Shown here piece by piece: positions 12,165 to 31,026 of a stretch of DNA of 64,000 nt. Numbering within the stretch: the stretch's first letter is position 1; every line of letters begins with the position of its first letter. A program made the position numbers and the translations under genes. The DNA comes from Prolixibacteraceae bacterium. Lineage in GTDB: Bacteria > Bacteroidota > Bacteroidia > Bacteroidales > Prolixibacteraceae. A model generated the notes under the pieces. That model made no database searches and was not told the DNA's origin. It was given only the letters and a program-made list of their open reading frames with translations. The DNA is taken from the NCBI GenBank assembly GCA_028683385.1, contig JAQUIJ010000010.1, positions 108,567 to 172,566 of the forward strand, read 5' to 3'.

Positions 12165-12259
12165 AAATTATCCTTTCCTAAGACTGGGATTTCAATGCCA
12201 TCTATTATTGAACTATAACGTACACGGTCAATTACACAACATGTTTTGGCAAAACACCC

Positions 12260-14632
12260 CTAAATTCTAAACCCCCATTTTGAAATAAACTGAAAATTCA
12301 TCAGACAGTATTTCTTGTTTTGTGGAGTAAGATTTTCTTTTCCATTCATAATGTCAAACATCATTTTAAAATGGTGTGGTTTTAGTCGTTTATTGGTTCT
12401 GTCCCACTGAACCATTTTTTTGATTAATTCCAACGTTATTTCATGATCATCTGTTTTATTTGTAGTTGTTGGTTCTGATAATTCATCGGCTTCAAAAAGA
12501 AGTTCCGGAGCTTTCGCTATGACTATTTCTAAAATTGAAATACCGTATGAAACTTCATTTGGCAAAATGCTAGAGGTACTTCTAACTTTTGTCATTAAAT
12601 TCCAAGCAGTATTTTTCTGGACAGTTGATAGATTATCAGTTTCTCTGCCCCATTCTTCAATCTTTTTCCAGACTTTCGAAGGAATTGATTTAATCCGTTC
12701 GAGATCTTCCTGACGTTTCTGCAATTCTACCTCATCATCTGAGATTACTGTTCTTTTGGTTTGATTTTTCGTGTCAACCAAGTCTTGCTTTATAGCAGAC
12801 AAATCAAATTTGAAATCATTGTCTTTTAGTTTTACCCAACATTCTTCCTTCTTTGCCCATTCGCCATACAGACCACCGGGAGCAGTATCCTTTATGAATC
12901 CTTCCAAAGTACTCATCATTAAATGCAAAAGTGATTTTAATGAGCCAGATATCTCCTGAGCTTTCCAAATTTTATAAAGATCTAATTGATTCTTAGTTAA
13001 GCAGTTTAATAAAGTTACCGCGTAAGGTACAGTAATATAACGCATATCACCTATCGCTCTGGGTTTGACACCATAAACTTTTTCTGCTGTCCTATAAAGG
13101 ATTGCTTTGGCAATTGTATCCTCAAAATATACATTGTTCATTTTTTTCTCCAGATTGAAGTTCATGAACTGCACATAGTTTTTTTGATTACCTCTGACAA
13201 CGTAATGCGGCCCGATTAAAATTTTTCTTCCATCTGAAATTTCCTGGTAGGCATTGATATATTTAGCCAGTTCCTCTTTTGTAAATAATTGGTGTTTTGG
13301 ATTCTTTAAATCAAATGCCTTTTTCCTGGATGGTGTAAATCCATCTTTTAGTATTGCATTTTTGTATTGTCCCCTGGCTCTTTCGTAAAACCATTTGGTT
13401 TGTATTGGCTGACTGTCGGTAATTGGCGTAAAGACATTCCTTGAAAGCTTTTCTAATTCAATATGATAGGGTCGGTTGCTACTTAAATCAGACACGGAAA
13501 CTTTGTTTTGAGTGTTTGCATATTCCGAAATCAGGGAAACTATTTCGCTGAATTTTTCTTTGTTTTTGACTACCGAAAGTTTTACCTGAACAAATATGTT
13601 GGAAATATCAGCCTTATCTTTCTTTTGCGTGTGATAAATGGATGCGGTTGTTTGTCCTCCATTTACAATCTGGAAATCCTTTACAACGGAAATTATTTTC
13701 CCATTGCCATCTTCGCTATTTTCCAATTCAATTTCATCTGCTGTCGCCGCTATTCCATTATTGAAAGCCAGAAACATTTCAGGTTCCTTAATTATTGTAG
13801 TCCTGATGCCCTTATTGATTTTTCCATTGAATTGCAAAAATGACCGAACATTTTGCTCTAAAAGCCTCGAACCAAATCTTTCATAAATGGATGCGAGTGC
13901 TTCTCCCGGAATAATTGCCAAATATGATTGATACTCTTCATTGATTGAAGGTGAAGGGATGCAGGGTACAGTATATCCATCGGATTTGAAATTTATCTCA
14001 ATGGGGATGTGCGATTTTTCACTTAAATTGTACAGGCTTTCAATATCAAATATCTTGTAGTAAAAATTGTAACCTGAAATAACTGTATTTGCAGGAAAAT
14101 CACCTTTATAAAAGCCGTTTGTAAGGATAAAAGCATTCACCCGAACAAGATTTTCTTTTATATCTTTTGATTTTGCCAATGTATAGGCAAATTGAAATAT
14201 TTCTGACGATTCTTCAATCTCATCTACATAATCGCTTTTAAAGTATTTGGTTTTTTCATCTACTGCTGAATAGATTGCCTTTCTAAAGAAGTTTAAAATC
14301 CGTTTGGATGCCGTTTCAATGTCAGGATTTGAAATTTTCGCTATTTCGTTTGTCCCGCTGAAAATTGTAATAAATAAATCTACCGTTTCGTAATTTTCTG
14401 ATATTGCATAAGCGTTTATCTTATGCTGTTTGGGAGTCCCCAAGGCTTTTTCATCATATTTGACAACTATGTTTTCGGATTCTCCGGATGCTGCCAGCAG
14501 ATCAACTGCTTGTTGAGTGAAAACCTGTTCAGATATTGCGCCTTCTTCATCGGTTGATTGAATTGCAGTAATTTCCTGCATTAATGCAGTATAGAACTTA
14601 TTAATTTCCAAATTCTCAATTGATGTGCTCAT
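12260..14632 (-). CDS. AIPR (abortive infection phage resistance) family protein
   Basis: A 790-residue protein matching the AIPR family in its central part, with the conserved FLAFNNGIAATA...DFQIVNGGQTTASIYH block around residues 280-335. Before it lies a PD-(D/E)XK-like N-terminal segment (KHKINAYAISENYETVDLFITIFSG, ~70-95), and after it YHIELEKLSRNVFTP and WFYERARGQY, also typical. AIPR proteins are encoded with Z1 helicases and DUF4420 nucleases in restriction-like operons and are named for phage abortive infection. Start overlaps the DUF4420 stop by one base (ATG at 14632), so translation is probably coupled. It is the last gene of the tightly packed operon. Confidence 0.9.
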   Translation of the reverse strand: MSTSIENLEINKFYTALMQEITAIQSTDEEGAISEQVFTQQAVDLLAASGESENIVVKYDEKALGTPKQHKINAYAISENYETVDLFITIFSGTNEIAKISNPDIETASKRILNFFRKAIYSAVDEKTKYFKSDYVDEIEESSEIFQFAYTLAKSKDIKENLVRVNAFILTNGFYKGDFPANTVISGYNFYYKIFDIESLYNLSEKSHIPIEINFKSDGYTVPCIPSPSINEEYQSYLAIIPGEALASIYERFGSRLLEQNVRSFLQFNGKINKGIRTTIIKEPEMFLAFNNGIAATADEIELENSEDGNGKIISVVKDFQIVNGGQTTASIYHTQKKDKADISNIFVQVKLSVVKNKEKFSEIVSLISEYANTQNKVSVSDLSSNRPYHIELEKLSRNVFTPITDSQPIQTKWFYERARGQYKNAILKDGFTPSRKKAFDLKNPKHQLFTKEELAKYINAYQEISDGRKILIGPHYVVRGNQKNYVQFMNFNLEKKMNNVYFEDTIAKAILYRTAEKVYGVKPRAIGDMRYITVPYAVTLLNCLTKNQLDLYKIWKAQEISGSLKSLLHLMMSTLEGFIKDTAPGGLYGEWAKKEECWVKLKDNDFKFDLSAIKQDLVDTKNQTKRTVISDDEVELQKRQEDLERIKSIPSKVWKKIEEWGRETDNLSTVQKNTAWNLMTKVRSTSSILPNEVSYGISILEIVIAKAPELLFEADELSEPTTTNKTDDHEITLELIKKMVQWDRTNKRLKPHHFKMMFDIMNGKENLTPQNKKYCLMNFQFISKWGFRI

Positions 14633-15630
14633 TATACTGTAAGGTTTTCAAAAACTGAAACTTCTGGTTGTTTATAAGCTTCACATTGCGAAAGAATAAT
14701 GGAGTATTTCACATCTCCAACTCCGCTGCGAATCTCATTTTCCTGGATTCTCGGGAAATTGTCCTCAACTTTATAAAACGTATCCTGCCGGATAAAATAA
14801 CCAGTGGAATCATACAAATCGATATGGTGATCAAAATATCCGGCTTCATATAATTTTGATTTGAATCGATTCGATGCAATAGAATCAGTTGCCAGTAAAT
14901 CATTTATCGAAGCGACAATCTGGTTTAATGTTTCTCCGCTTTCCTGTACTTTCTCCAATGAAATATGGTAGAGAAATAGTTTTTCGAGGTGTGTAATATC
15001 CAGCTGTCTTTCACTGCTGATCTGGACTTTTTGATGATTATTTCCATGTGTCGTTTTTACTTCCACTGCCCAGTTATTCATTTGAAAATCTCGTACTTCT
15101 CTGGCAGAACCTACCCAGGTATTTAATACGAGCTGTAGTTTATTATTGCACAGAAGAAATTTCCGCAGGAAATATAATTCGCCAAACAAACCTCTTTGCT
15201 CTTCGGGTGTCAGACCTTCAGAAATCATTCGTGTGAATAGAGATTTCCATTTTTCAAATCGGTTCAATATCGTTTTTACTAATTGCTTTTCGTTGGTTTC
15301 GTTAGTTATGCTTGAAATTAAGTCTTCACATAAGACAGAAAATATGTCCCTGTGCTGATTGTTGATCAGTTTAAAAAGCAAAACGTTTTTCCCTTTCTGA
15401 TTGTAATCCGGAAAAAAATCAATTTGTATTTCCTGTAAATTATCGAACATTGAAATATTTACCTCTATGCTCTCGCTTATTGACGTGGCAATGCACAACA
15501 ATTTTTCAGGCTGTTGTATCGCTACAAACACATCAGGCAATACTGATCCGGAATATCGCCGTAGAAGCAACCCTTTTTTGAACGAGGTGTCATTCGCTAG
15601 CTCATCCCATATTTGATTAATCTTCGTCAT
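14632..15630 (-). CDS. DUF4420 PD-(D/E)XK nuclease
   Basis: A 332-residue protein of the DUF4420 (PD-(D/E)XK motif protein) family. The active-site pattern is visible: GLFGELYFL (E151), VGSAREVRDFQ (D181), and WAVEVKTT (E190-x-K192), followed by QISSERQLD, a conserved feature of this family. It is presumed to be the DNA-cutting subunit working with the Z1 helicase encoded just upstream and the AIPR protein just downstream; its start overlaps the Z1 gene by 14 nt. Length is typical. The nuclease call is firm from motif and neighbours; the substrate is not known. Confidence 0.92.
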   Translation of the reverse strand: MTKINQIWDELANDTSFKKGLLLRRYSGSVLPDVFVAIQQPEKLLCIATSISESIEVNISMFDNLQEIQIDFFPDYNQKGKNVLLFKLINNQHRDIFSVLCEDLISSITNETNEKQLVKTILNRFEKWKSLFTRMISEGLTPEEQRGLFGELYFLRKFLLCNNKLQLVLNTWVGSAREVRDFQMNNWAVEVKTTHGNNHQKVQISSERQLDITHLEKLFLYHISLEKVQESGETLNQIVASINDLLATDSIASNRFKSKLYEAGYFDHHIDLYDSTGYFIRQDTFYKVEDNFPRIQENEIRSGVGDVKYSIILSQCEAYKQPEVSVFENLTV

Positions 15631-18385
15631 CGTTGTCGTTATCTATTTCGTCATCAATATTGAATAGTGCCAGGAGTTGTCTATGAATAGCATAGCGCAC
15701 TGAAGAGTTAAACCGACTACCCGGAAAACTTATTGCAAAGCCAACTAATGGGTCGCTTCCTTTAGGAAGGTCAGCCCCTTCTGGGTCAAGAAAGTATATT
15801 AGCAGTAAAGGATTTTTCGGATTTCTGAACTCATTTCGGACTATATCTCCTTTCGGATAATCATTCTTGTATTCCTTGTTGTTATGCTGGTGAAATGCAA
15901 TCGTTCTTTCCAATGCGGCTCTATATTGTTCTGGTTCTAAATCAACGAACTCATCTTTAGGACTTATGATGTGATTTTTCCTGATGAAAAATGTAGTAGA
16001 ATCTGTTCTTTCTGTGGCATTCCGGCGAAACCAATAACCAATATCGACAATATTCCCGTTTTTGTCAATTGGGAATCTTTCAATTGTGTCTGCTTTTGAC
16101 ATTAATGCTACACTCCAGTTTGTAAGCTCACCGTTTGCAATCTGGACATCTATAAATTGCAATAAGTTGCCTGGATCAACTCTTACCAGGGAGTCCGGAA
16201 CTTTGAACTTTTGAAATAATGGCCGAATCAATTCAGGTGATACATTCTTCCACAAATAATTGTTTCTATTGGTTTTAAAAGTAGCATCAAGCGAACTTAT
16301 AAAATCAACAGTAGCATCTAAATTCGATTTTACAACTATTGGATTTTTCTGCAATTGATATGATTCAACCAATCTTCCAGCCCAGGAAACATCAACATTT
16401 ACAGCCCTACGAATCTTATTTGATGCGGAAATTTGCAACACTCCTGGATGGGTTCGCACTTTTAAAGCATATTGTTCCGGAGTGCTACCTGCAACATCTG
16501 ACATGTAGTCAAATTCGCTTCTTAATTCTTCTGAAGCCAAAGTGATATGACAAAACCACTCATTCAATTCACTGCTTGTAAAGAGGCGACATAAATCTAC
16601 ATAACCGGGTCTGTAACCGAACCACCTGCCCATTTGCATCAAGGTATCGTACATCCGTGAAGCTCTCAGATAATAACTTACCGAAAGTCCTTCCAATGTC
16701 AATCCTCTGGATAACTTATCACCACCAATAGCTATAACTGACAAGCCTTTTTTATGGTCGTAATAGTTTAAGGCATCTGCCGAACCACCATTGATTTTTT
16801 TGACTTGAATTCTGACGGCTGCCTCACGCAATTGCTTTTCTACCTCCACCCATTCATGAATTTGGGTCGCGCTGTCAATCCCTCTTAATTCGGTATCTAA
16901 AATTTGTTGTGAGATTGTTGTATATGATTTATAATTATCTGTATCATCCTCAAACACTTGTCTCATTTCTTCGAGAATAGAGGGTATTTTCATTTCAATT
17001 CCTCTACGGTAAAAATCGAAGGTGCTTTCTACAAGTTCTTTAATATGGTCTTGCCAGTTAATAAACCGGCTAACATGTATCAACATTGAATTGTGAGCCA
17101 ACTCTTGTCCCCGAAGTCTTCTTATTGCGCAGGTAATAATGAAACTTTTTATTGCAAGTCGCAATGAATCTGGTATTGAATCAGGCAATTCCGATTCTCT
17201 CTTATGTCCATTCGGCACAAAGTTCTGATAATCATCAATTCTGTTTACGATTGGCAAAACTTCATCAGAGATTTCATCATCTTCTAAAACCCTAATTCCA
17301 AAGACTTTTTCCGGACCAATATAATTTGATGGAGCCTGAATATTGATAATAAAATCTTTAGGGAAAAGCTGGTCTTCTTCAATCGGAATAAAAATATTTG
17401 CAAAAGGAGTCGCAGTATAGCCCACATAACCACTTTTGTCAAATAGTCTCAAAATATTACGAATGTGTTCATTTATTTTGGTTGATTTATCTTCATCCTT
17501 GTTGGTGTTTATTGATGCGTTATCCGCTTCATCATCAATCAGCAGTAATGATTTATTGTTGATTCTTCTTTCACCTTTTGCATTTATACTTGCCTGAGAA
17601 CTCAGCCATTGAAATAGTTTTTCAAGCACTTTTGTATTCTTTTTTACAACTGCAACTATCGGTTCATTGGTGTTAAAAGTTTGTGTTGTTCTTGCACTGA
17701 AGTCACCATTGTCAGAACTTGATGTGACCGAATGAACAGGTAGCGCATTTTTGCCAATTCCTACACCAATTGTATGCTGACCGGTGTTAAATGCCCGCTG
17801 AAATTGGGTATCAAAGCCCAAAAATCCTTCATCTAAACGAAGCTGTGTTTGACTGCGCAGATTGTTGTGAATACCAGCTAAAACAATTATCAATTTAAAT
17901 CCTGCATCGGCAGCTTTGCAAATCAGACCGGTATAGTTCGATGTTTTTCCAGACTGTACTTGTCCAACAACTAACCCGTATTTACTGATTAAAACATTCT
18001 GATCGGGATTAAATAATCCATCAAGTGTTCTGTCCGTAAGTTTGTCTAATTGATTTAACACTGCCTCAGGGTAATTCTTTTCATCCTGAAGATAATCTCT
18101 ATATCTATTCCAAAAGTTCCATTCAATAGATGTTTTTTTATCATTTATCCAGGGTAACCGGCTTTCTTCTTTTTCAATGATCCGAAACTCATCCATGCGA
18201 ATATTATAGATAGCCTGAACCTCCCGTATTAATGTGGCCTTATCTAATGCTGCAAAATTTGGGACATACAGCATCTGGGTCACTGCATCTTCAATTTGTT
18301 GTGGAGTAACCGAAGCAGACGCAGGTAGAAATATCCTGATAGCTCTTATCGCTTGTTGTATCATCTTTTCAGTATAAGGATTCAA
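15617..18385 (-). CDS. Z1-domain superfamily II helicase/endonuclease
   Basis: A 922-residue protein with Walker A GQVQSGKT at 141-148, Walker B LLIDDEAD at 281-288, motif III YTATPFAN at 323-330, and the Z1 signature GDKLSRGLTLEGL...RASRMYDTLMQMGRWFGYRPGY near 560-605, which carries helicase motifs V and VI. Z1 proteins are the motor of MORC-linked restriction-like operons. The start overlaps the DUF2971 gene by 17 nt; an internal ATG (MIQQAIRAIR, 18364) is possible and would remove the overlap. The acidic C-terminal tail (DDEIDNDNDDED) is notable. It probably moves along DNA to license cutting by the DUF4420 nuclease; this is inferred. Confidence 0.92.
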   Translation of the reverse strand: MNPYTEKMIQQAIRAIRIFLPASASVTPQQIEDAVTQMLYVPNFAALDKATLIREVQAIYNIRMDEFRIIEKEESRLPWINDKKTSIEWNFWNRYRDYLQDEKNYPEAVLNQLDKLTDRTLDGLFNPDQNVLISKYGLVVGQVQSGKTSNYTGLICKAADAGFKLIIVLAGIHNNLRSQTQLRLDEGFLGFDTQFQRAFNTGQHTIGVGIGKNALPVHSVTSSSDNGDFSARTTQTFNTNEPIVAVVKKNTKVLEKLFQWLSSQASINAKGERRINNKSLLLIDDEADNASINTNKDEDKSTKINEHIRNILRLFDKSGYVGYTATPFANIFIPIEEDQLFPKDFIINIQAPSNYIGPEKVFGIRVLEDDEISDEVLPIVNRIDDYQNFVPNGHKRESELPDSIPDSLRLAIKSFIITCAIRRLRGQELAHNSMLIHVSRFINWQDHIKELVESTFDFYRRGIEMKIPSILEEMRQVFEDDTDNYKSYTTISQQILDTELRGIDSATQIHEWVEVEKQLREAAVRIQVKKINGGSADALNYYDHKKGLSVIAIGGDKLSRGLTLEGLSVSYYLRASRMYDTLMQMGRWFGYRPGYVDLCRLFTSSELNEWFCHITLASEELRSEFDYMSDVAGSTPEQYALKVRTHPGVLQISASNKIRRAVNVDVSWAGRLVESYQLQKNPIVVKSNLDATVDFISSLDATFKTNRNNYLWKNVSPELIRPLFQKFKVPDSLVRVDPGNLLQFIDVQIANGELTNWSVALMSKADTIERFPIDKNGNIVDIGYWFRRNATERTDSTTFFIRKNHIISPKDEFVDLEPEQYRAALERTIAFHQHNNKEYKNDYPKGDIVRNEFRNPKNPLLLIYFLDPEGADLPKGSDPLVGFAISFPGSRFNSSVRYAIHRQLLALFNIDDEIDNDNDDED

Positions 18386-19226
18386 ACTTAATTTTATAGG
18401 TTTCAGAATTTCTTAATGCAATCTTTTTTTCGATTGGTATTTTTTTTGCTTCAATTATCTGCAAGAGCGTTTCTTTTACTTTTATATCCATTCTTTCTCC
18501 AAAGATTATTCCCTTTATTGCTTCAGGTGGGTATTTGAAGTATTCACCTTTAGATGCTTCCTTTGAATTAAATACTAATCGAATCTCTTCCTCATATTTC
18601 CATTGGATTGGTTTTGTTGCAATTGTTTTTGTGTATAAAGCATCTAACAATTGCTCAGCATCTTTTATACCTTCCTCATAATCTTGATGATACGAAGAAG
18701 AAGGTTCTTCATTTAAAGCCATTTCATTAAACCAAATTTGGTCATTAGCCAATGAATATAACATTTTGTCAACTATAGGTGGCTCTTCAGCATATAAAAC
18801 AGGAATAATTGAAGCTTCTTTATCAGTATCAACTGACAACATTAACGATTCGTCAAACTCTAGGCAAAAGCCCCTTAAGCCATCAGCATAATGTGACCAC
18901 ATCAGCAAATTATCAATCTCTTTAGAAAAACAAGAAATCCGGGAACCATCCAAAATTTTTTTAATGTCTGGTTGATAAGATTCAAGCTCTTCCATGTATA
19001 GATAGTAACTATCATAAAAAGCATCATCTGATTCTTTTTCATACCCCCATATTTGACATATCTTTTCAAATCTATCTGGTTCTTTTTCAGGATCAGGACT
19101 ACCTTCTTTTAAAATAAACCAACATTCAAATGGATCATTAAATGCTTTATAATTTCGGCAATACAATTCATTTCTAATTAAATTAGAAATCGAATACTCA
19201 TCAACTGTAAAATATTTATAAAGCAT
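18369..19226 (-). CDS. DUF2971 family protein
   Basis: A 285-residue protein with the DUF2971 hallmarks: LYKYF at the N-terminus, NDPFE (residues ~35-39), ISCFSKEIDNLLMWSHYADGLRGFCLEF (~97-124) and, further on, KPIQWKYEEEIRLVF (~202-216). DUF2971 is a common but uncharacterised family; its conserved W-S-H-Y-A and E-x-R residues suggest an enzyme, and members are often found in defence islands. Here it is locked into the operon, starting 2 nt after the GHKL ATPase gene and overlapping the Z1 gene by 17 nt, so a role in the same pathway is likely. Precise activity unknown. Confidence 0.88.
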   Translation of the reverse strand: MLYKYFTVDEYSISNLIRNELYCRNYKAFNDPFECWFILKEGSPDPEKEPDRFEKICQIWGYEKESDDAFYDSYYLYMEELESYQPDIKKILDGSRISCFSKEIDNLLMWSHYADGLRGFCLEFDESLMLSVDTDKEASIIPVLYAEEPPIVDKMLYSLANDQIWFNEMALNEEPSSSYHQDYEEGIKDAEQLLDALYTKTIATKPIQWKYEEEIRLVFNSKEASKGEYFKYPPEAIKGIIFGERMDIKVKETLLQIIEAKKIPIEKKIALRNSETYKIKFESLY

Positions 19227-19228
19227 TG

Positions 19229-20701
19229 CTAATTAATAAACTCTAAAAAGTGGACGAACTGATTAAATGGGTCAATGTTGGCAATTATGACTTTTGCTTC
19301 CTCTGGTGTTTTGCCTTTTGATAATAAACTGGCAAACATCGTTTCCATGGTTTTTCTTATCGGTTCATGATCTATGCCTTCAAATGGGTTGCCTTGTGTT
19401 TCCGGTTCTTCGGCTGCTTTTATATAAATAGATTTGGACGGAATGTTTTCTTCGATGAACCGTATTAGTGTTTCTATTGCTTTGTCCGGCTCCGTTTGGG
19501 CTTGCAATTTTGCCATATCCAATAAAGGATGTTCCCTGTTTATTTTGTAAAACCATTTATCACCTCTTTTGTGATCGATCCAGAGCGGAACAAACTTCTG
19601 ACCATTGGTTTGTTTTATTGTTTTTCCCCGATGGCGGTACACCTCGACACCTTGCGCTCTAACTTTTGTTGCATAGTTTTTAATCTGATCTTTATAAATA
19701 AGAGGTGGACGAGCCACTGATTTTTTAATGTCGATCTGCCAATCAGCATCTAAAGAATTAGGAATATCAATCTGTATTCTGATAAGCTTATAATGTTCTT
19801 CTTTTCTGAATAGACCCAGCCAGTCACCGGATAATAAAAGTCTCTCATTTCTGTAAATGTAAAAGCCCTGGTGCTCGTTCCAACCTTTTGTTCCTTCAGC
19901 ATATTTATAAGTTTCTTCATCAATCTTAGATTTGTGAGGCAAAACAAAGCCTTTGATAATTACTTTGCCATTATGCAATTGTTCTTCTGAAAAGGATTGA
20001 GTAGCTTGTTCGCTCTGCAAAAAAGGATTCCAGGGTTTTATTTCGTTGTCCTGAAAGTAGATTTTTATTTTTTTGCTTTCAATAAAACGGTGAAAGACCA
20101 TTGCCAAATGCTTTTTCACCATTTCCATGATAAACAAGAATTTATCCAATGCATTGTTATCATTTTGCCGGAAATGTTTTACTACTCTGTCAATGTCATT
20201 CCAAATGACCAATGTGCCTGAACCAAGTTCTGTCAAGGCGTTTTCATCAAAACTCTCCGGTAAGTATTTAAGTAAATCCCAATTGCCAGTTTGATTCACA
20301 TAGTCTAAATCCCATGTCCAGTAAACGGTTGAATTATCTTGTTTTTTCGATAGAACGGTTAACTGACGAGCCTGTGAGAAAGAAGCTGTTTTAAGTCCTA
20401 GTCCAAATCTTCCCAGATCTTTTAAACTTCTGTCTGCCAGTGGGTTTTTGCTACCTGGGCGCATTGCCTGAATAAGTTCGTCGTTATTCATTCCGGTGCC
20501 GTCATCTTTAATTGATAACCATGTCTCGGCACCTTTCCAATCGAAGTTTACCCATACATTTTTTGCATTGGCCGAAATCGAATTATCTATAATATCGGCA
20601 ACAGCAGTTTCAATGTTATACCCGATTGCCCGGAAGGTCTCAATCATTGACGAGGCTTCGGGTATCGCTGGGGTGGTTTGGTATTTGGAGAAGTCAATCA
20701 T
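19229..20701 (-). CDS. MORC/MutL-like GHKL ATPase
   Basis: A 490-residue GHKL ATPase. The Bergerat fold is clear: AVADIIDNS (N-box, 34-41), IKDDGTGM (64-71) and GRFGLGLKTASF (97-108), followed by an S5-like domain with a K-P-R/V-A-R-P-P element (VARPPL near 325). This fits the MORC-like ATPases of restriction-like operons described by Iyer, Abhiman and Aravind in 2008, where they accompany Z1 helicases and cytosine methylases. Such proteins dimerise and clamp DNA on ATP binding. The start overlaps the preceding kinase-fusion gene by 8 nt, so the two are translationally coupled. Confident family call; DNA clamping inferred. Confidence 0.92.
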   Translation of the reverse strand: MIDFSKYQTTPAIPEASSMIETFRAIGYNIETAVADIIDNSISANAKNVWVNFDWKGAETWLSIKDDGTGMNNDELIQAMRPGSKNPLADRSLKDLGRFGLGLKTASFSQARQLTVLSKKQDNSTVYWTWDLDYVNQTGNWDLLKYLPESFDENALTELGSGTLVIWNDIDRVVKHFRQNDNNALDKFLFIMEMVKKHLAMVFHRFIESKKIKIYFQDNEIKPWNPFLQSEQATQSFSEEQLHNGKVIIKGFVLPHKSKIDEETYKYAEGTKGWNEHQGFYIYRNERLLLSGDWLGLFRKEEHYKLIRIQIDIPNSLDADWQIDIKKSVARPPLIYKDQIKNYATKVRAQGVEVYRHRGKTIKQTNGQKFVPLWIDHKRGDKWFYKINREHPLLDMAKLQAQTEPDKAIETLIRFIEENIPSKSIYIKAAEEPETQGNPFEGIDHEPIRKTMETMFASLLSKGKTPEEAKVIIANIDPFNQFVHFLEFIN

Positions 20702-23700
20702 ACTTCATTTGTCTAATTCTAAGAATTAAAAAATCTTTAGACCCTTTTGAATAACGTTCAGTATCCCACTTCTCTGGTTTCACATACCAACACTGCGATA
20801 TTTTGAATATTGCTGAGAAAATGGCTGCTGCTGCAGTTTGAATTTTATTTCCCGTAAGACCAAGTTCAAAAGGAAAGTTATTTTGAATAAAATAGGTGTA
20901 ATAGTCTTTGGTTATTTGTTGTAAAATCTCATCTATGTCATTTTGATTTAGATAATGAATAACTGCAGAATTAAATTTTCTGAGGGAAAATTCGGCAGAG
21001 GTTCTAGCCAATTTATCCCTAGGGGCATCGCCATTTGTTACAATAACATTTATCTGCTCAAATTCACGTTCGTCAAGCAATGTGTATAATCTTTCATGCT
21101 TCGCAGAGGCAAAGGCAAACAAAACGCGAGGTTCAGAAATATTAACATAGTGTGGAAAAAGATTTATTAAAGAATATGGACCTTTTTCTCCGTTAAGTAA
21201 ATTAGACATTTCTCCTAATAGGACAGAAGAATCATTTTCTCCATTTGAATCCATAAATCTTTGAACATCTTCATCTAATGGATATTCCTTTTCAGGCGTT
21301 GTTAACGAAATATATAAATTTTTATTTTTTAAATAAAAAGTCCTTATTGTGTCAAACAGTATTCCTTTGGGTAAACCTGTAATATCGCATAATACGTTGC
21401 AGTTTTCCAGCAAGCTCAATTGCTCTTTAAGCAGATCCTGTTTTATAATTACTTTTTTATCATCATCAAAATCATCAAATACCTTAAGTATATCATTTGT
21501 TAAACCCTTTTCATATAATTCAATGAAAATGATTCTCTGAGGATTGATCTTTTTGATTTCAATTGCAGAATTTAAAGCTGCTTCCTCAAAACCAAGTCCA
21601 ATTATTGCAACATCAATCTTAAGGTGAGTATCCTCTTCCTGATTAATATATTTTATCTCGGGCAATTTCTCAAGAATAAAGGAATAGTCAGTTTCATTAT
21701 TCTGAATGTCAGGTTCATCAAATAGATATAATTGTTTTGACACTTCTTTTTGTTTGCTTGATGAAGATTGAATAGTATCAAAATCTGTTTCTGACAATAT
21801 TTTTGCAATATCGATCTCTGAAAATGGATTTAAATTTTTGGTTAAAATGGTTTTCCCATTCTTAGGATTACTCAGCCATTCTTCTAAAGCCTTCCCTGAT
21901 ATTTCAAATCTGTCGGAATTTGACAGTGCCATATGCTTACTTACTCCGTAAAGTTTTCTGAAAACTAGTTTAAATTGTTGTTGAGGTTTCAGTCCTTGTC
22001 GATTTGTCCTCGAAGCCTCTGGGCCACCTTGCAAATTAAATATGCCAGCATCAATTAATTGCCGAACTTGTTTGTACTGATTTTCTTTATCCCCAACTGT
22101 AATATTGATAAAAATAGAGGCATATTGTCTAAGTCGATCTGTTTCTCCTCTAGCTTTTTTTAATGCAGATTGGATTAATAAATGATGTGAAGCATCAGCA
22201 AATGATTCAACAAAATCAAGGTAACGAGTATTCCTTCGATTTAGATCATATAATCGAGAATTACAAAGTTCTAAATAACATGAATTTTGAATTTTTGCTT
22301 CTATTGGAAAGAATTTTGAATAAGATGACCGTCTAAGTATTAGCTCGTAAAGAGTAATTACATCTCCCAAATCACCAACACAAACTGCTGTTAATGCAGA
22401 AATGCCGTGATATAATTCCTTTTTTAGAGATGCCTTTTCTTCTCGAACAATACTTTCAGCTATCGAAATTAAACTTTCATCACCTAAAATTTGGGATGGT
22501 ATACTATTCTTAGGATGAAGTGGAAAATATTTTGCTCTCTTTAATAAAATACTCTCCACAAAAAATCGTCCTTCAGTTTGGTCTTCACGAATAACCCTAT
22601 TTACTTCAGCTCCCAGATCAAAAATTGAATAATCTCTTCCAATTTTTGCTTGTGAGTTACTCCCTGGAGCCATAATTACCATCTCAAGGGTTTGAGCTTC
22701 AGTTGTAAACTTAAATGCACAGGTTTCGTCTTGAAACAAAAGTTCAGAGATTAGCTTGATAATACTTCTATCGTTAAGATATCTTGTGGAAACATCATCC
22801 AACAGAAAATAAATATTTGATTGAGCAAATATTTCAGATGACTTCTTTATCGATTCGGCTAATTGAGGAAAGGCTATTTTAGGATGTATAGTTACTTGAT
22901 AAGTTGATTGTCCGTCACTAAGGGAATTGAGGTATTTTTTTAATCGAATCTCAAGATCATAATCTCCAGTTACATTTAGAAGTTCCTGACTATTATTTAT
23001 TAGTGAGGATAATGTATTAGCAATAGTTATAAAGTAGTCCTTTCGAACTATATCAATTTGTAGATCTTTAAGGTGACGTATAGTATGTAGAGCCTGAATT
23101 GTATAACCAATTAATAGCTTTGAATATGGTTCGAAAATTTCCTTGTATACATCGCCATCTAAAGCATTAAAATCTAAAAGTTTAACACATGAGATGTACA
23201 AACCAACATATTTTTCTGAAGGATCTGTTAGTCGTTCAATTATCTTTTTATTATTTATTTCTTCATCAGAATTTTGTGGCATTAATCTGGCATGAAATTC
23301 CAAGGCCCTTAATAGCATAGTTTTCCCACATCCACGCATTCCTGTAATAACTTGAGGACCCTTTATACTAATAGATTTAGTCCAAGCATTATCTTTATCT
23401 ACAAATAACGAAGTAACATACCATGGACTCAGTGATTGAGCGTTAACAGCATCATCAAAGCTTTTCAATTTAAATTCTTGCTTCCAAGGGCTAGTATGAT
23501 GATAATAAGTGTCCTTTATTTGATTAATAAGATCAGTATAAGTAATTTGTCGTTGATGTATGACTTCTGGTTTAAGAAAATCAGCCTTTTCTTCTAAAAG
23601 AAATGCTAACCTCCAATCTTTATCTTCGTATTTATCAATGTTATCAGTAATTTTTCTACTCAAAAAATATAGGCATTGTGCTATCCAGTGCAAGTCTCCT

Positions 23701-24389
23701 ACACGATCACTATCATCGTTGCTTTTAGTTTTTTGATCTAAAGAGCCTAAATCAATTGCAACTACTCTAATATTTTCATCAATTTCACCAAAACGAATTC
23801 TAGTTGTAGGTAAGTTCTCTACAATAATATTTCCAGGATGAAGATCATTATGATATTTTTTGTTTGATTTTAATTCTTGTAAAAGTGATATTAGATCAAT
23901 AGAAATTTGTGCTATCGTTCTTGATGGAATAGTTATATCTTGATTTAAATACTCCTTCAAAGTTTTTCCTTCTAAGTATTCCAATCCTATAACATGGCAG
24001 TTTATTGTTATTCCATTAGTAAAAGTTATTGGTAAATTCTCAAAAAATATGTTTGTATCAATCCCAACAACATGATTAGAATTTTCAGAAAGCTCCAAAT
24101 GATTTTCGCTCTCTTCACGAAAATTTTTGTTATGAAATTTATACAATTCGACGGGAATAACTTTGATAACCTTTTTAATCATTAATTTTCCAAGAGGAGC
24201 AATTTCTCCGATGTAAGTAGCTCCATAAAATCCGCGTGCTAATGGCTTAATTATCCTGATATTGTTAATCATTTCAGGGTAAAATTCCAAAGGAAACCCA
24301 AAAGTTAATCCACATTTTGTACAAACATCAAATAATTCTTTTTTTGAATAATCTTTGTTTGGGCAAATAAAGCAACTATATTTTTCCAT
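20694..24389 (-). CDS. Zinc ribbon-protein kinase-P-loop ATPase-Rossmann-domain fusion
   Basis: A 1231-residue multidomain protein. Residues 1-30 form a zinc ribbon (C6-x2-C9 and C23-x2-C26). Residues ~40-300 are a Ser/Thr kinase-like domain: glycine loop 51-58, K72/K73, catalytic loop HNDLHPGNI (H180-D182-N187) and IDLGS (D213) in place of DFG. Residues ~335-560 are a P-loop ATPase with Walker A GMRGCGKT (350-357) and Walker B YFLLDDVS (527-534). Residues ~923-1231 resemble a Rossmann/CARF-like domain (DVAIIGLGFEEAA, CDITGLPKG near 1001, LTGNKIQTAAAA near 1178). The design suggests a sensor, switch and signalling kinase. Start overlaps the phosphorylase-like stop by one base. The C-terminal call is tentative. 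Confidence 0.8.
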   Translation of the reverse strand: MEKYSCFICPNKDYSKKELFDVCTKCGLTFGFPLEFYPEMINNIRIIKPLARGFYGATYIGEIAPLGKLMIKKVIKVIPVELYKFHNKNFREESENHLELSENSNHVVGIDTNIFFENLPITFTNGITINCHVIGLEYLEGKTLKEYLNQDITIPSRTIAQISIDLISLLQELKSNKKYHNDLHPGNIIVENLPTTRIRFGEIDENIRVVAIDLGSLDQKTKSNDDSDRVGDLHWIAQCLYFLSRKITDNIDKYEDKDWRLAFLLEEKADFLKPEVIHQRQITYTDLINQIKDTYYHHTSPWKQEFKLKSFDDAVNAQSLSPWYVTSLFVDKDNAWTKSISIKGPQVITGMRGCGKTMLLRALEFHARLMPQNSDEEINNKKIIERLTDPSEKYVGLYISCVKLLDFNALDGDVYKEIFEPYSKLLIGYTIQALHTIRHLKDLQIDIVRKDYFITIANTLSSLINNSQELLNVTGDYDLEIRLKKYLNSLSDGQSTYQVTIHPKIAFPQLAESIKKSSEIFAQSNIYFLLDDVSTRYLNDRSIIKLISELLFQDETCAFKFTTEAQTLEMVIMAPGSNSQAKIGRDYSIFDLGAEVNRVIREDQTEGRFFVESILLKRAKYFPLHPKNSIPSQILGDESLISIAESIVREEKASLKKELYHGISALTAVCVGDLGDVITLYELILRRSSYSKFFPIEAKIQNSCYLELCNSRLYDLNRRNTRYLDFVESFADASHHLLIQSALKKARGETDRLRQYASIFINITVGDKENQYKQVRQLIDAGIFNLQGGPEASRTNRQGLKPQQQFKLVFRKLYGVSKHMALSNSDRFEISGKALEEWLSNPKNGKTILTKNLNPFSEIDIAKILSETDFDTIQSSSSKQKEVSKQLYLFDEPDIQNNETDYSFILEKLPEIKYINQEEDTHLKIDVAIIGLGFEEAALNSAIEIKKINPQRIIFIELYEKGLTNDILKVFDDFDDDKKVIIKQDLLKEQLSLLENCNVLCDITGLPKGILFDTIRTFYLKNKNLYISLTTPEKEYPLDEDVQRFMDSNGENDSSVLLGEMSNLLNGEKGPYSLINLFPHYVNISEPRVLFAFASAKHERLYTLLDEREFEQINVIVTNGDAPRDKLARTSAEFSLRKFNSAVIHYLNQNDIDEILQQITKDYYTYFIQNNFPFELGLTGNKIQTAAAAIFSAIFKISQCWYVKPEKWDTERYSKGSKDFLILRIRQMKYD

Positions 24390-25597
24390 TATATTATTTC
24401 TTCAAAATATTTTAAATCAATTGTTTGTAGCGCTGTTCCAAATGAACTTTTGAGATCATTCTCAAATATTTCTTTATATTGGTCATCACATCTGAATGAG
24501 CAGATTGTTTCTCCTTTGTCAATATATTTATTTGGTGTAACTTTCAATATTAAGCCACAGTTATCCGGGAACAAATCATTACTTTTTGATTGAATATTTA
24601 AAATCGCTTCTCGGATTTTCTCCATATCGATAGATAATACTCCATTCTCCCTGGCATAAATATTATATTTATGTTGTTCGTTTACTGTTTCCGCAATTTG
24701 TGTAAATGATGATATTAGTCCTCCCTGAATTCTGATATTTTCAGAAAATGCCTCGCGGAGTGAATTGAGAGAATAGCCATTACTGCTTTTGTGAATACTA
24801 ATGGAATTTGCCATTGAAAAACAATGTTCTAAATGCTTTTCAAGATAGATGTCAAAATTTCCTGCAAATATTTTTTGTAAGGCTAATATTGATTCTCCCC
24901 TACCAATGTATGGTTGTTGTGGAATATTTCCATTAGTAAGAAAACACTTCGACTGAATACCTGCAAGATTCGCAATTTTGTTGAATCTGACTCCATTCTG
25001 ACGAGCTTCATCCCATGTCTTACCAAAATTTCCAAAACTTGATACTCTTATATCAAGGCCAACATAATTTAATCCAACAGCGATTTTTTTTGATAATAAA
25101 GAAGCAATAACAAGGGAAGGTATATCTATTGTCTTTGTTCTTTTTCGATATTGAAAAAGCAACGCGTCAAGTGGAGTAAAGTTTTCACTTGCAATAAAGT
25201 GAACATATGATGAGCAATTAATCCATTCATATAATTTTTTTAGGTCCGGATTTATCTTATATCCGGAAATTTGGGATAATACATCAATGCCGCCAGCCGG
25301 TCTTCCAGGTACTCCTAATTTTATAACATTATTACCCAATATCTTCAGGAACAAAGGGCATAGCAATGTGGAAAGTGAGGATGGGCCACCGGTTGAAGGA
25401 ATATCACAAACTTTCATGTCATTTTCTAATCTAATTCGATCTCCAGAATTTGCCAGCCCATTTGCCAGATATAGGATTTCATGATCGCATAAATCGTACT
25501 TCTTTGAATAGCTTACCAAAACATTCATATTTTCTTCGTTAGGGTCACGAAAAAAACAATCAAAAATCTCTTTGCTCCTATTTTTTTGATTTGGCAT
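24389..25597 (-). CDS. Thymidine/pyrimidine-nucleoside phosphorylase-like protein
   Basis: A 402-residue protein related to DeoA/PyNP phosphorylases, somewhat shorter than the usual 430-440. LTxAN-like region at 38-55 (EILYLANGLANSGDRI), phosphate loop DIPSTGG (65-71), GRPAGGIDVL (98-107), and RKRTKTID...ASLLSKK (151-171). By alignment R151, S166 and K170 match E. coli R171, S186 and K190, which hold the thymine base. The lysine of KHSTGG (E. coli K84) is replaced by Ile66, and the second phosphate loop is shortened. The C-terminal lipoyl-like subdomain is present. It starts directly after the methyltransferase stop. It may cleave or merely bind nucleosides; nucleotide-pool sensing or depletion in defence is inferred. 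Confidence 0.82.
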   Translation of the reverse strand: MPNQKNRSKEIFDCFFRDPNEENMNVLVSYSKKYDLCDHEILYLANGLANSGDRIRLENDMKVCDIPSTGGPSSLSTLLCPLFLKILGNNVIKLGVPGRPAGGIDVLSQISGYKINPDLKKLYEWINCSSYVHFIASENFTPLDALLFQYRKRTKTIDIPSLVIASLLSKKIAVGLNYVGLDIRVSSFGNFGKTWDEARQNGVRFNKIANLAGIQSKCFLTNGNIPQQPYIGRGESILALQKIFAGNFDIYLEKHLEHCFSMANSISIHKSSNGYSLNSLREAFSENIRIQGGLISSFTQIAETVNEQHKYNIYARENGVLSIDMEKIREAILNIQSKSNDLFPDNCGLILKVTPNKYIDKGETICSFRCDDQYKEIFENDLKSSFGTALQTIDLKYFEEII

Positions 25598-26842
25598 TTA
25601 TCGAATATTTTTGATTTTTTCTGCTATACATTGAGCCATGAGCGGTGGAACAGCATTCCCAATTTGTTTAAATGCTGCTGTCCGGTTCTGCTCTTCTTTC
25701 ACTCCTTCAAAATAATAATTATCAGGGAATGACTGTAAGCGGGCTGCTTCACGAACGCTTATTGAACGGTTTTGCTCTAAATCAGGATGGATATAGTAAT
25801 GACCATCCTTTGCGATATGAGCAACAACGGTATGTGAATAATTTAAGTCTTGAGCAACAACTTTAAAACGATCAAAGAAAGAGTGTCGGTTTTTATGTGA
25901 TTTTAAAACTTCAGGAAGGTCATTATAATCAAGTCTTTGTCCTTTATTGTTCCATTTATCTACGGCAATACGATATATTTTTTTATCCTGTTCAGAGTGT
26001 GGTCGGGCAATATGTTGAGTTAAAATATCGATTCCATTACGTATTGATTTCTGATCAAGATATTCATTGGTATCAGCTCTATATTTGACAAACTTATCCA
26101 CACCTTGTCCGGCACTAATTTTTGGCAGGTCATTAAAAATGCTATCAACCTTAAAATCAGTTTGCATACGAACGGATTCCAAATCCGGTAAATCCGGGTT
26201 GATATCTTCTCTCCAACCAAGTATAATTATACGTCTCCGATTCTGCAATACCCCAAAGTTATTGGCTGCAAGCGTATATAATCTCATTTTGTAGCCCTTC
26301 TTTAAAAAGAGCTTCTCCATGTTTTGAAGGTATGTGCCTTTTTTTGCCGATTTTAATCCAAGTACGTTTTCAAAAACAAAATATTTCGGTTTGTATTTTT
26401 CGAGATATTTCGCATATTGAACATAGAGATGATTCCGGGGATCACTCTTCATACCATCTTCAGACCTTGCTCTTCCAACCAGTGAATATGCCTGGCAAGG
26501 CGGTCCTCCTATTATAAGATCCACATCCTGTCCATTAAGTTGTTCTGAAATTAAGCTGAAGATGGGTTCATTGAATTCGGTTCCAATAGGGAGATTGATT
26601 ACGCTGTCAAGTAACTTGACAGGGATATGATTGTATAATTCTGACCTTTTAATTTCACCTTTTAGATAGGCATAATATATCTCAGACTTGTTATTTGATT
26701 TCAGGTAATGAAAAGCTAATCTGGTTTTTATCGTATTACAAGCGGCCTTATCCATCTCGACATGAGCAACAGGGTTAAAACCTGCTCTTAGAAATCCTTC
26801 AGAGAGGCCGCCAGCACCAGCAAATAGATCAATGTAATTCAT
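25598..26842 (-). CDS. DNA (cytosine-5)-methyltransferase
   Basis: A 414-residue C5 methylase with motif I DLFAGAGGLSEGF (5-17), motif IV GGPPCQAYS (nucleophile C116), motif VI FENVLGL, motif VIII NRRRIIILGWR and motif X QIGNAVPPLMAQ near the C-terminus. A target-recognition region of ~100 residues lies between VIII and X. It methylates cytosine at a specific DNA sequence, presumably marking self DNA for the restriction-like modules in the same operon; no classical type II endonuclease is adjacent. A Vsr mismatch endonuclease, the usual partner of C5 methylases, is encoded just upstream of the operon. Start overlaps the KaiC-like stop by one base. Confidence 0.95.
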   Translation of the reverse strand: MNYIDLFAGAGGLSEGFLRAGFNPVAHVEMDKAACNTIKTRLAFHYLKSNNKSEIYYAYLKGEIKRSELYNHIPVKLLDSVINLPIGTEFNEPIFSLISEQLNGQDVDLIIGGPPCQAYSLVGRARSEDGMKSDPRNHLYVQYAKYLEKYKPKYFVFENVLGLKSAKKGTYLQNMEKLFLKKGYKMRLYTLAANNFGVLQNRRRIIILGWREDINPDLPDLESVRMQTDFKVDSIFNDLPKISAGQGVDKFVKYRADTNEYLDQKSIRNGIDILTQHIARPHSEQDKKIYRIAVDKWNNKGQRLDYNDLPEVLKSHKNRHSFFDRFKVVAQDLNYSHTVVAHIAKDGHYYIHPDLEQNRSISVREAARLQSFPDNYYFEGVKEEQNRTAAFKQIGNAVPPLMAQCIAEKIKNIR

Positions 26843-29406
26843 TATTCTTTATCTAGGTAATATTTATTAATATCTTCTTGATCAAATACTTCTATAAGAT
26901 TATCCTCAAGTGAATAAATATATTTGTTGTGTTTATCCCATCCCAACTTAAAATTCTCATAATCTTGTTTAATTGCATTCTCAGCAGAAATAATATTATG
27001 TTTTTCTAAAGCATCACTTTTAGAATTAATAAAAACGCATTCATCTACCCTAATATAAAAATCTGCAGCTTTAACCAATGCGTGAAGAAATGGTGTTTGT
27101 CCCTTCTGCATCAAAGTTGTATCCGGATTGGCATAGTCGATCATACTTTCCTTAATTCGAAAGTTAGTAAATGTCGTTACTACAGTCAAATCATATCGTG
27201 AAAAAATATTATATAGCATGGGCCAGATCATATCTCTCTCCTGAAGTTTTTTAAACTGTAAAAAAACATTATGCATACCATCAAGCAAAATTCCGGTATA
27301 AGGTTCACCTTGTAAACAGGCTTTGTCAAGCTCCCTGGTAATCTTATTTGTTAGGTCTTCTGGGGTAAGAAATCCTGGGTAAAAATATAAAATAGAAATT
27401 TTGGGAACCGAGATGTTTTTGTAGAGGGTCGCAATCGTTTTTTGGATACTGGGATGCAATTCTTGGTAGTATTCGTTGGGGTATAAAAATGAAATTATTA
27501 AAACTCTGCGCTGATAGCTGTAATTTGAAAAATTCATTCCTGATGAAACATCTTGCCAAAGGTAATTTGCAGTCTTGATATTTTGTTTTTCTTTCTTCTT
27601 TCTTTCTTTCTTGATTGGAGGGGTCATTAATATTTTCAAAGCAAATCCAGCCTTACCGGAACTTCCGTTACCATGTATCAGAATCTGAGAACCGGGAAAA
27701 ATATCAAGATTAGGTTTAAAATAGACCTCATCAAACTTTATTTTGTCTGTTTGTTTCTTTTCTAAATTTAATGTATTTATAACATAATTATCATCGGGAA
27801 GATTTTTTCTTAAAGGAGTTCTTCTATCCAGTTGTGAGGGTATTTGTGGCGAAATTCTAAATCCATCATCACCGGAAAGATGAAATAGATGAGAACCAGT
27901 CCTTGAAAGCTGGTGTCTCGATTTCTTTAAAGTAAATACTCTTAAAGGCTTTTCTTCAAACGATTCTACTTGATGATTAGACAATTCAATTGCCATATCA
28001 ACCAAATAATCAAGTTTTGACATCTCAGGAAGATTCTCCCCTGAGACTAGTAAAACCAGTGCATTCAGTTTTCTGCAATCATGAATAAAATTTTGTAATA
28101 CATCAAGATCAACAATTTCATTCGTTCCATTTAACAACCCATTCAGATTGTCGATTACAATAAGTGCAGGGCATATATTTTGAATTGCATATTCCTGAGT
28201 TGGAACATCCTTGTTTTGTTGAAAGGCAATCATTAACTTATGAAGAACTTCTTTTGAAAACACTTCAAGATCCGAGATTGGTTGTGGCTTATATGGTAAA
28301 AACCAATCGGCATCTTCGTTCTTACTTGGTTTATTTGAGATGTTGGAATATATACTCATGTCTTGAAAGAAGTCAGGAATAATTGACTGCAATCTCTCTC
28401 TTAATTCATCCTCTCCCTCTTCTAAAGTTATATATAAACATTTTGTATGGAAAGGTGCAAGCGATCCTGCAATAGAAAGTGCAAATGATGTTTTCCCGGA
28501 ACCAGGGCTCCCACTTATACTTATTACAAGACTATTATTGGCAGCTTTTTTTAACCCTCCAAAAAAAATAGTATCAGCACCTGAGATTGGCAACGGAATG
28601 CCAAACATCAGATTGGAAATTTCCGAATTAGATGGTAGTGTCAAATACTGGTATGCAAGCCTGAAGTGATAATTAGGACAACAAATCTTATTCTTTATTG
28701 AATATTCTATTTTAAAAAATGCTTCTAAATCACTTTCTTTTCTGAACCATAAATTGGTTATACCAAGCATAGCAAAAAAGTGTCCCACCAAAAAATTATA
28801 CGCTGGAGGTGAAGAATATTCCGGCAATAATTGGTAAGGAATCTGAGAATTTTTATCATCAAGTTTAGGCCACCTAGCTTGAATTTTAATATGCTTCTTT
28901 AATGAGCCAATAGCATCAAATATTTCATTAGTATTGTTGTCCTTATTGATATTAAAGCGAAAATAATAGAATAAAATCGAACGACAGGTTAATAAAGAAT
29001 AGGCAGAAGTTTCTTGGTTGTCAGGTATTGTTAAGTATTTCATCAAAATATTTAACGGAGAAGGTATCAATAATCCTTCATAATTTTTGGATTTTTCGTT
29101 TGCCTTACGTGCCTCTAAATATGATGAAATAACTAGACTTCCTATACGTGGATACCTTTTATCTCTTCTATGTCGGTCAAAAAGGCCTTCTGTCAAATGG
29201 GCGTCTAAATTTTTCAGGCCATAAAGTGCACCTCCAACTTTATCCACAAGAACCTTTGAAGTTTTATAAATATCCTCATTGTCAGGCGTCAAAGAAAATT
29301 TATCTAATTTATATATGTCATGAGATAATTTTAACAATTCAATAATCTTATCTAAGATCTGTGGAATATATTTTCCATATGGTAGATCAGCAGCTATTTT
29401 TTTCAT
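26842..29406 (-). CDS. KaiC-like protein with two RecA-type ATPase domains
   Basis: An 854-residue protein. Residues 1-265 are helical and unrecognised. Residues ~266-510 are a KaiC/RadA-like RecA domain: FGGLKKA, Walker A GSPGSGKT (299-306), YITLEEGEDELRERL (the catalytic Glu pair, 325-339), and Walker B ALIVIDNLNG (414-423). Residues ~565-830 are a second RecA-like domain whose P-loop GNGSSGKA (579-586) lacks the Ser/Thr after Lys, so it may not hydrolyse ATP; YTGILLDGMHN looks like its Walker B. KaiC-type proteins form hexamers that switch partners by ATPase or autophosphorylation. Operon placement between two unknown proteins and the methylase suggests a scaffold or timer in the system (inferred). 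Confidence 0.85.
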   Translation of the reverse strand: MKKIAADLPYGKYIPQILDKIIELLKLSHDIYKLDKFSLTPDNEDIYKTSKVLVDKVGGALYGLKNLDAHLTEGLFDRHRRDKRYPRIGSLVISSYLEARKANEKSKNYEGLLIPSPLNILMKYLTIPDNQETSAYSLLTCRSILFYYFRFNINKDNNTNEIFDAIGSLKKHIKIQARWPKLDDKNSQIPYQLLPEYSSPPAYNFLVGHFFAMLGITNLWFRKESDLEAFFKIEYSIKNKICCPNYHFRLAYQYLTLPSNSEISNLMFGIPLPISGADTIFFGGLKKAANNSLVISISGSPGSGKTSFALSIAGSLAPFHTKCLYITLEEGEDELRERLQSIIPDFFQDMSIYSNISNKPSKNEDADWFLPYKPQPISDLEVFSKEVLHKLMIAFQQNKDVPTQEYAIQNICPALIVIDNLNGLLNGTNEIVDLDVLQNFIHDCRKLNALVLLVSGENLPEMSKLDYLVDMAIELSNHQVESFEEKPLRVFTLKKSRHQLSRTGSHLFHLSGDDGFRISPQIPSQLDRRTPLRKNLPDDNYVINTLNLEKKQTDKIKFDEVYFKPNLDIFPGSQILIHGNGSSGKAGFALKILMTPPIKKERKKKEKQNIKTANYLWQDVSSGMNFSNYSYQRRVLIISFLYPNEYYQELHPSIQKTIATLYKNISVPKISILYFYPGFLTPEDLTNKITRELDKACLQGEPYTGILLDGMHNVFLQFKKLQERDMIWPMLYNIFSRYDLTVVTTFTNFRIKESMIDYANPDTTLMQKGQTPFLHALVKAADFYIRVDECVFINSKSDALEKHNIISAENAIKQDYENFKLGWDKHNKYIYSLEDNLIEVFDQEDINKYYLDKE

Positions 29407-29414
29407 CTATATGT

Positions 29415-30155
29415 TCAGTTTGGGAAAGCATATGTTGGTTCCAATCTTTTACTATAGATTCGAATAGTTTCTTGAAGCTTGGAATTATCGATTTTATTTG
29501 AATTATCTGCTCTATTAAAAATTTTATTATTCTTCTCAAGCCATTCTATTTTGATTTTTGATTGAGGTTCTATAGTCAAAACAAAACTATGAATTGTTTC
29601 AATCTTCGCTTTTGAAATCGAATCAATTCCGGACAAAGAGTTAATCCATTTGTCAAGTAATTTTGCTGTAATATCAAAAGAGGGACTTGAATGGCTGAGC
29701 ACATTTAATGAAACAACCAGATCAAATTCAAAATACATATCGGCCCAAAATAGGGGCAACTCATTTTTTAAATGAATGAATTCGCTTAAAAGTAATTTTG
29801 AGATGCCATCACTATTAATTGTCTGTAAAAGCTTCAAGAATAATGCTTGCGACTTTAGGTCTAATTTTTTTATCGCTTCAGATTTTGCTGCATAAGTTTC
29901 AAAAGTATTATAATCATTAATTTGAATTTTTTTTATAAAAACCATCAAAGAGGAATAATCATTATTATCAAAATCAACAACACTATTGCCGAGCTCTCTC
30001 ACGTATTTGGCTATTGTTTTAAATATCAGCGATTCCTTTCCCATTTCTAAAACTTCATCTGAAAGGCTCATCAATCCAGAATGAAGGTGATTATACTTTA
30101 AAGGCTCACTATTTTCCTTTATAAGTTGAAAAAGTTGTTCCGAATTTTGGATCAT
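29415..30155 (-). CDS. Unknown helical protein of the operon
   Basis: A 246-residue soluble protein with no recognised domain. The pattern is almost all alpha-helical, with amphipathic repeats (SEQLFQLIKENSEPLKYNH, SLSDEVLEMGKESLIFKTIAKYVRELG, KSQALFLKLLQTINSDGISKLLLSEF), and no Cys, His or Asp cluster suggesting an active site. It starts 10 nt after the first gene of the operon and ends 8 nt before the KaiC-like gene. The most economical guess is a partner or adaptor for the KaiC-like ATPase, like other helical proteins next to RecA-type ATPases, but nothing in the sequence proves this. Confidence 0.75.
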   Translation of the reverse strand: MIQNSEQLFQLIKENSEPLKYNHLHSGLMSLSDEVLEMGKESLIFKTIAKYVRELGNSVVDFDNNDYSSLMVFIKKIQINDYNTFETYAAKSEAIKKLDLKSQALFLKLLQTINSDGISKLLLSEFIHLKNELPLFWADMYFEFDLVVSLNVLSHSSPSFDITAKLLDKWINSLSGIDSISKAKIETIHSFVLTIEPQSKIKIEWLEKNNKIFNRADNSNKIDNSKLQETIRIYSKRLEPTYAFPN

Positions 30156-30165
30156 CGTATAATTT

Positions 30166-30909
30166 TTAATTGCTTATTGTTAATAAAGAAACAATAAGAT
30201 TGAGCTCCATTTTCTCTATTACCATTTCCTCTAATCCCTCGTCTCCATTTTCAGGATTGGTTTTGCCACCGGGTTTCCATTTACTACTTAATCCCGCATC
30301 AAAAATCGTTGGTATAAATGCCTCAATACTGTTTGGTTTCTCAATTTCAAAGAATACCATTTCTTTTTTTAAGAACATATCTTCAAAGGCTAATAATCTA
30401 GGTAATTCTTTGAGATTTATTCCATCAAGAATAGTATGGATGCAATTTTCATTACCGAAACACCACATTTGATGAAACCTAATTCTTAAACTTCCAAATT
30501 TCTTTTTTAATTCCTCTAAGTCCGGATCTGGAATATCAATTAGGTTATTTAATTCTGACAGATTAGTCAAGAAACTGATAGAATAAATATCTTCATTTAT
30601 TATTTTAAATAACTCATCTTTTAGTCTCTCTTTGGTAACAAGGTGCCCAATTTTATTCTTTCTTTCTTCGAAATTTATTTGTTCACCTTGTCTATGATAT
30701 TTAGGATTATGGAAAAATTTCTGCTCTAATTTTCTTTGACAAATAGACTGTTTTTCAGCATTGTCTTCAATTTCCTCTTTCTCTATAAATTCATGAACCT
30801 CTTCGACTAAATTCTTCCTACTAGTTTTCAAAAAATTGTCATTGTCAAAATTAATCAGAAAATATTGAAAATCAATTTCTAATATAGATTTAATAGCAAT
30901 CTTATCCAT
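30166..30909 (-). CDS. Unknown first protein of the defence operon
   Basis: A 247-residue soluble protein with no recognised family. The N-terminal half is rich in charged helices (LVEEVHEFIEKEEIEDNAEKQ, FEERKNKIGHLVTKERLKDELFKII). The C-terminal half has hydrophobic beta-like stretches and short motifs such as RFHQMWCFGNENCIHT and FEIEKPNSIEAFIPTIFDAG, followed by KWKPGGKTNPENGDEGLEEMVIE, a loop with a GKT triplet that is not a convincing P-loop. It is the promoter-proximal gene of the operon; the ATG at 30907-30909 has a -7 box 21-28 nt upstream. Being first may mean that it is made in highest amount. Function unknown. Confidence 0.75.
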   Translation of the reverse strand: MDKIAIKSILEIDFQYFLINFDNDNFLKTSRKNLVEEVHEFIEKEEIEDNAEKQSICQRKLEQKFFHNPKYHRQGEQINFEERKNKIGHLVTKERLKDELFKIINEDIYSISFLTNLSELNNLIDIPDPDLEELKKKFGSLRIRFHQMWCFGNENCIHTILDGINLKELPRLLAFEDMFLKKEMVFFEIEKPNSIEAFIPTIFDAGLSSKWKPGGKTNPENGDEGLEEMVIEKMELNLIVSLLTISN

Positions 30910-30929
30910 TATTCCTTAAGTTAGATATG

Positions 30930-30937
30930 CAAATATA
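30930..30937 (-). promoter_or_regulatory. Promoter -7 box of the defence operon
   Basis: CAAATATA reads TATATTTG on the minus strand, an exact match to the Bacteroidota -7 consensus TAnnTTTG, about 21 nt before the first start codon. No good -33 TTTG is seen at the proper distance. The surrounding 117 bp to the Vsr stop (31027) are very AT-rich and hold no gene. This appears to be the only promoter for roughly 18.6 kb of coding sequence. Confidence 0.5.
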
Positions 30938-31026
30938 AAACACAATGATAAATTAGTTAAAAGTAATAATTTTTATTAGTGATCGACCTTTGGAAAATAT
31001 AAAAGTGCTATAATTTTTTATATTCA

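Follow-up and report, generated by a model that had tools for sequence, protein, structure and literature searches.

A restriction operon in a Prolixibacteraceae bacterium that appears to carry grafted regulatory gene sets around a single DNA methyltransferase

The window, a 64,000-nucleotide (nt) stretch of Prolixibacteraceae bacterium DNA (GenBank assembly GCA_028683385.1, contig JAQUIJ010000010.1, 108,567-172,566 of the forward strand), harbors an operon of eleven minus-strand genes at 12260-30909; coordinates are window positions unless a locus is named. Judged from sequence, a mobile element appears to bear a known type of restriction operon with regulatory gene sets grafted into it; in one of these sets, an altered nucleoside-processing enzyme appears to accompany a kinase-sensor protein. 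The grafts point to defence genes combined around a single DNA-marking enzyme. The eleven open reading frames are genuine and packed as a first-pass annotation had described, with gaps of -17 to +10 nt across the ten gene pairs. The single visible -7 box reported in that annotation is correctly placed at 30930-30937 but is one of nine on the same strand within 12000-31500.

The kinase-sensor protein is a fusion of a Zn ribbon, a Ser/Thr kinase, an ORC/CDC6-like AAA domain and CARF6. Its predicted Zn ribbon, kinase catalytic residues, P-loop arginine and CARF6 C-terminus are those by which the Zn-STK-AAA-CARF family is recognized. The kinase HxDxHxxN motif, D213 and the P-loop GxRGCGKTM are invariant in five sequences including the window, and the Zn ribbon cysteines C6/C9/C23/C26 are retained in a relative on a Loktanella plasmid (L007). 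No relatives of the fusion were found in phages; viral contigs yielded nothing with the single sequence or alignment A1, and relatives with alignments A3 and A8. L061 and L062 were dropped as relatives, since the kinase stretch alone matched and their genes look by eye like phage structural genes; in G299 the match is limited to 56 positions of the AAA domain, beside neighbours without a match to the reference set. A type III CRISPR signal for the CARF domain is unlikely because the host genome (0 of 1) lacks a detectable Cas10 palm domain (PF22335), which was detected in 5 of 14 control genomes; CD-NTases were not searched.

Enzymes of other kinds are found next to related cassettes. In L007 (16613-19020), the anti-phage phosphoesterase DS9_1, consisting of Pua-like and metallophosphoesterase domains, lies 965 nt upstream of the kinase-AAA-CARF gene, preceded by a reading frame with a DPPWY motif that by eye is N6-methylase-like and has no Pfam match. 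A viral-collection contig (L060:7755-12723) carries a four-gene set of N6 methylase, PRTase-CE, ORC/CDC6-like AAA and CARF6, without a kinase. On a Bradyrhizobium plasmid, thyX (L014:14911-15834) immediately follows a split kinase/AAA/CARF cassette, and in L012 a thyX-like frame, identified by eye, lies ∼10 kb from the cassette. A thymidine link through thyX was rejected and both cases treated as chance, because the L012 frame is distant and sits among housekeeping genes.

The altered enzyme is a thymidine phosphorylase-like (TP-like) protein encoded between the methylase and the kinase fusion in both loci found, the window and L008. It scores 109 bits against the TIGR02644 cut-off of 409, about a quarter. 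In both copies the K-H pair of ordinary phosphorylases is replaced by I-P and the GRGLGHTGG loop by GRPAGG, which we take to be changes at phosphate-site residues. All 5 distinct ordinary enzymes in the alignment have the K-H pair, and their loop is intact or nearly so. R151, S166 and K170 align with the R, S and K of these enzymes, presumably base-site residues. Among eleven other TP loci, six lacked a KHSTGG-type motif in the filter and were left unaligned, and five were aligned, one of them twice, L031 and L016 being the same gene. No host gene passes the pyrimidine-nucleoside-phosphorylase cut-off, and the best match in the genome is the TP-like gene, itself below. No relatives of the TP-like protein were found in viral contigs.

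A second grafted set, the KaiC triad, comprises a KaiC-like protein and two proteins without assigned families, U246 and U247. Full-length KaiC-like relatives occur in G813 (39-43%) and L057 (28-30%); searches of plasmids and phages found none. The first P-loop is intact (GSPGSGKT), the second reads GNGSSGKA, and the motif residues are invariant in the three sequences. Relatives of U247 adjoin the KaiC-like gene in G813 (31 residues matched, blastp 1.2e-4) and L057 (profile 4.7e-5). U246 has no significant sequence match to its positional counterparts in G813 and L057.

Table 1. Features of the operon and its upstream edge, in window coordinates.
Feature	Coordinates	Strand	Evidence
AIPR, MzaE-like	12260..14632	-	PF10592 1.4e-92; MzaE 381.8 bits
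DUF4420, predicted PD-(D/E)XK nuclease, MzaD-like	14632..15630	-	PF14390 5.8e-81; MzaD 141 bits
MzaC homologue	15617..18385	-	PF10593 7.5e-81; NCBIfam MzaC 670.7 bits
DUF2971 protein, graft	18369..19226	-	
GHKL (MORC/MutL-like) ATPase, MzaB-like	19229..20701	-	PF13589 1.6e-34; PADLOC MzaB 4.1e-111; NCBIfam MzaB 437 bits
Zn ribbon, Ser/Thr kinase, ORC/CDC6-like AAA, CARF6 fusion	20694..24389	-	PADLOC CARF6--CARF_STK_AAA E=0, 1822.6 bits; PF24389 1.2e-22
TP-like, divergent pyrimidine-nucleoside-phosphorylase relative	24389..25597	-	TIGR02644 2.2e-31; PDB 3h5q 5.4e-21; 56% to L008
C5 cytosine DNA methyltransferase, sole one in operon	25598..26842	-	PF00145 1.5e-60; 77% to L008, 73% to L042
KaiC-like protein, two P-loop domains, second degenerate	26842..29406	-	PF06745 1.8e-13
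U246, no assigned family, KaiC triad	29415..30155	-	matching position in G813 and L057 only
U247, no assigned family, KaiC triad	30166..30909	-	no Pfam or PADLOC family
Candidate Bacteroidota-type -7 box (TAnnTTTG)	30930..30937	-	1/9 such boxes
Vsr-type endonuclease, backbone gene immediately upstream of operon	31027..31455	-	

The operon looks, by gene content, like cargo of a conjugative element because the window has genes for a relaxase, for conjugation ATPases and for ArdC, MobC-like and RteC proteins, a tyrosine recombinase gene crosses its left edge and a tRNA-Leu lies ∼1.3 kb outside that edge. A search of window positions 46000-54000 for a tRNA-Leu repeat that would mark the attachment site gave nothing, and the right end of the element is therefore not fixed. 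A second recombinase-like frame, by eye resembling the left-edge one, lies ∼5 kb past the right edge (L069:12540-13763) and may mark another, or larger, element. The ArdC-type antirestriction protein (2612-4291) adjoins a short N6-methylase-like frame, and the element seems to carry restriction and antirestriction genes together. Downstream of the operon on the same strand (5647-9955 and 10083-12164) are two GmrSD_N-type genes, one with a HEC-06/Orf5/SspE model match, and a gene for a 693-residue protein with a weak PD-(D/E)XK match. This group begins 95 nt past the AIPR gene and is probably further defence cargo; within the operon, DUF2971 is a candidate defence family.

The graft reading is slightly more likely than not, and several observations weigh against it. 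The TP-like gene is known from two loci only, the KaiC triad from three and the kinase/AAA/CARF genes from eight; adjacency to methyltransferases has no formal null because plasmid and viral collections are probably methyltransferase-rich. The window is not placed beside L042 in the methylase tree, and the contrast in third-codon-position GC content in G813 is small. The CARF part alone matches CARF6 models besides its own weakly (best 0.0019), and structure predictions for this part (three rows, pLDDT 35.5) and for the TP-like protein (two rows, pLDDT 46.1) are too poor for use. Co-directional genes with touching or overlapping ends could also mean one tightly integrated machine.

A doubtful alternative, though the strongest, holds that the operon is an array of separate defence systems with a common promoter and methyltransferase, acting independently on their own triggers. 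Standalone kinase-AAA-CARF and KaiC modules near a methyltransferase agree with it, as do the defence-type genes downstream, whereas Pfam, PADLOC and NCBIfam recognise no nuclease or other known effector among the graft proteins, the DUF2971 candidate excepted, and in L008 the TP-like gene and kinase fusion accompany a closely related C5 methylase. It is rather improbable that the eleven proteins form a single obligate pathway with every extra needed for restriction, even with ten of ten junctions tight. The first-pass annotation took this view, and its observation that the added modules sit among the backbone genes, not behind them, stands; the requirement for one process is not favoured, as the kinase-AAA-CARF and KaiC modules also occur without the core, a situation the annotation had itself named as contrary, while the TP-like gene offers just two loci. 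Least credible by far is a salvage enzyme acquired by chance beside a plain restriction operon, which the clear superfamily membership and the host lacking an ordinary phosphorylase above cut-off would allow but the replaced phosphate site, retained base site and fixed position in both loci oppose.

Under the graft reading, methylation would provide a self mark, as in the family literature, and the GHKL, helicase and nuclease proteins would act on DNA as Iyer et al. proposed. The CARF domain would sense a ligand, as described for its family, possibly of nucleoside type; the kinase-AAA-CARF protein could gate the core, and KaiC might be an ATP-driven switch. An unlikely but specific version has the TP-like protein, a phosphorylase-fold enzyme whose phosphate site is remodelled, supply the signal of a cyclase-free CARF circuit. 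It would make, or erase, a messenger derived from a pyrimidine nucleoside, and the CARF domain encoded by the following gene would read this messenger and thereby activate the kinase/AAA and hence restriction. The upstream PRTase-CE (L060) and DS9_1 (L007) suggest nucleotide-handling enzymes exchangeable around one sensor. A precedent, in the part of the source available, is the proposal that nucleobase phosphoribosyltransferases make a threat signal for ligand-binding domains in Ter systems (PMC7824862). CARF proteins also occur within large operons with restriction systems in CoCoNuTs, according to the accessible text (PMC11090510).

The arrangement is suggestive of a hub role for DNA methyltransferases, with different regulatory modules (kinase-AAA-CARF, KaiC triad) being joined to them and swapped. 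It further provides a concrete candidate for the way in which a CARF domain outside CRISPR could come by its ligand; what CARF domains bind was raised as a key question in the available portion of PMC4012209. A methyltransferase link for the KaiC triad or the TP-like gene was not found described in the limited literature covered.

The analysis covered 17 backbone loci, L054 among them. The operon shares homologues of MzaB, C, D and E with Mza (MzaABCDE; PADLOC, NCBIfam), in contrast to which all four fall far short of the NCBIfam equivalog level (MzaB 437/850, MzaC 671/1500, MzaD 141/420, MzaE 382/1050 bits). No operon gene has a sigma-factor match in Pfam or NCBIfam; MzaA is a sigma factor (PMC9523054). 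A DISARM reading was discarded, its sole basis being the methylase scoring as DrmMII. BREX/Pgl and MADS likewise place a methyltransferase alongside a kinase and an ORC/CDC6-clade AAA protein, a likeness by analogy of parts: the kinase domains match MAD6 weakly, and with BREX the AAA clade alone is in common, PglZ and BrxC/PglY being absent among the matches listed for the operon proteins (for the methylase, 25 of 63 PADLOC rows). KaiC has two intact RecA-type ATPase domains, whereas the second P-loop is degenerate here and in the aligned relatives. The TP-like protein shares fold family and base-site residues with pyrimidine nucleoside phosphorylases (TIGR02644), unlike which its phosphate-site residues are replaced. 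As the first-pass annotation proposed, the core fits the MORC/paraMORC operons of Iyer, Abhiman and Aravind (2008), sharing the GHKL ATPase, a distinct SF-II helicase, an RE-fold nuclease, Dcm, Vsr and AIPR; kinase-AAA-CARF, TP-like and KaiC-like genes were not found described in the accessible text, where 'KaiC' occurs 0 times (PMC2292703). The fusion matches the Zn ribbon-kinase-AAA-CARF-wHTH family in its architecture from Zn ribbon to CARF, including the P-loop arginine and Zn ribbon, as far as the source's available text describes it (PMC4012209; PADLOC CARF6--CARF_STK_AAA), but here it adjoins the TP-like gene and is embedded in a restriction backbone.
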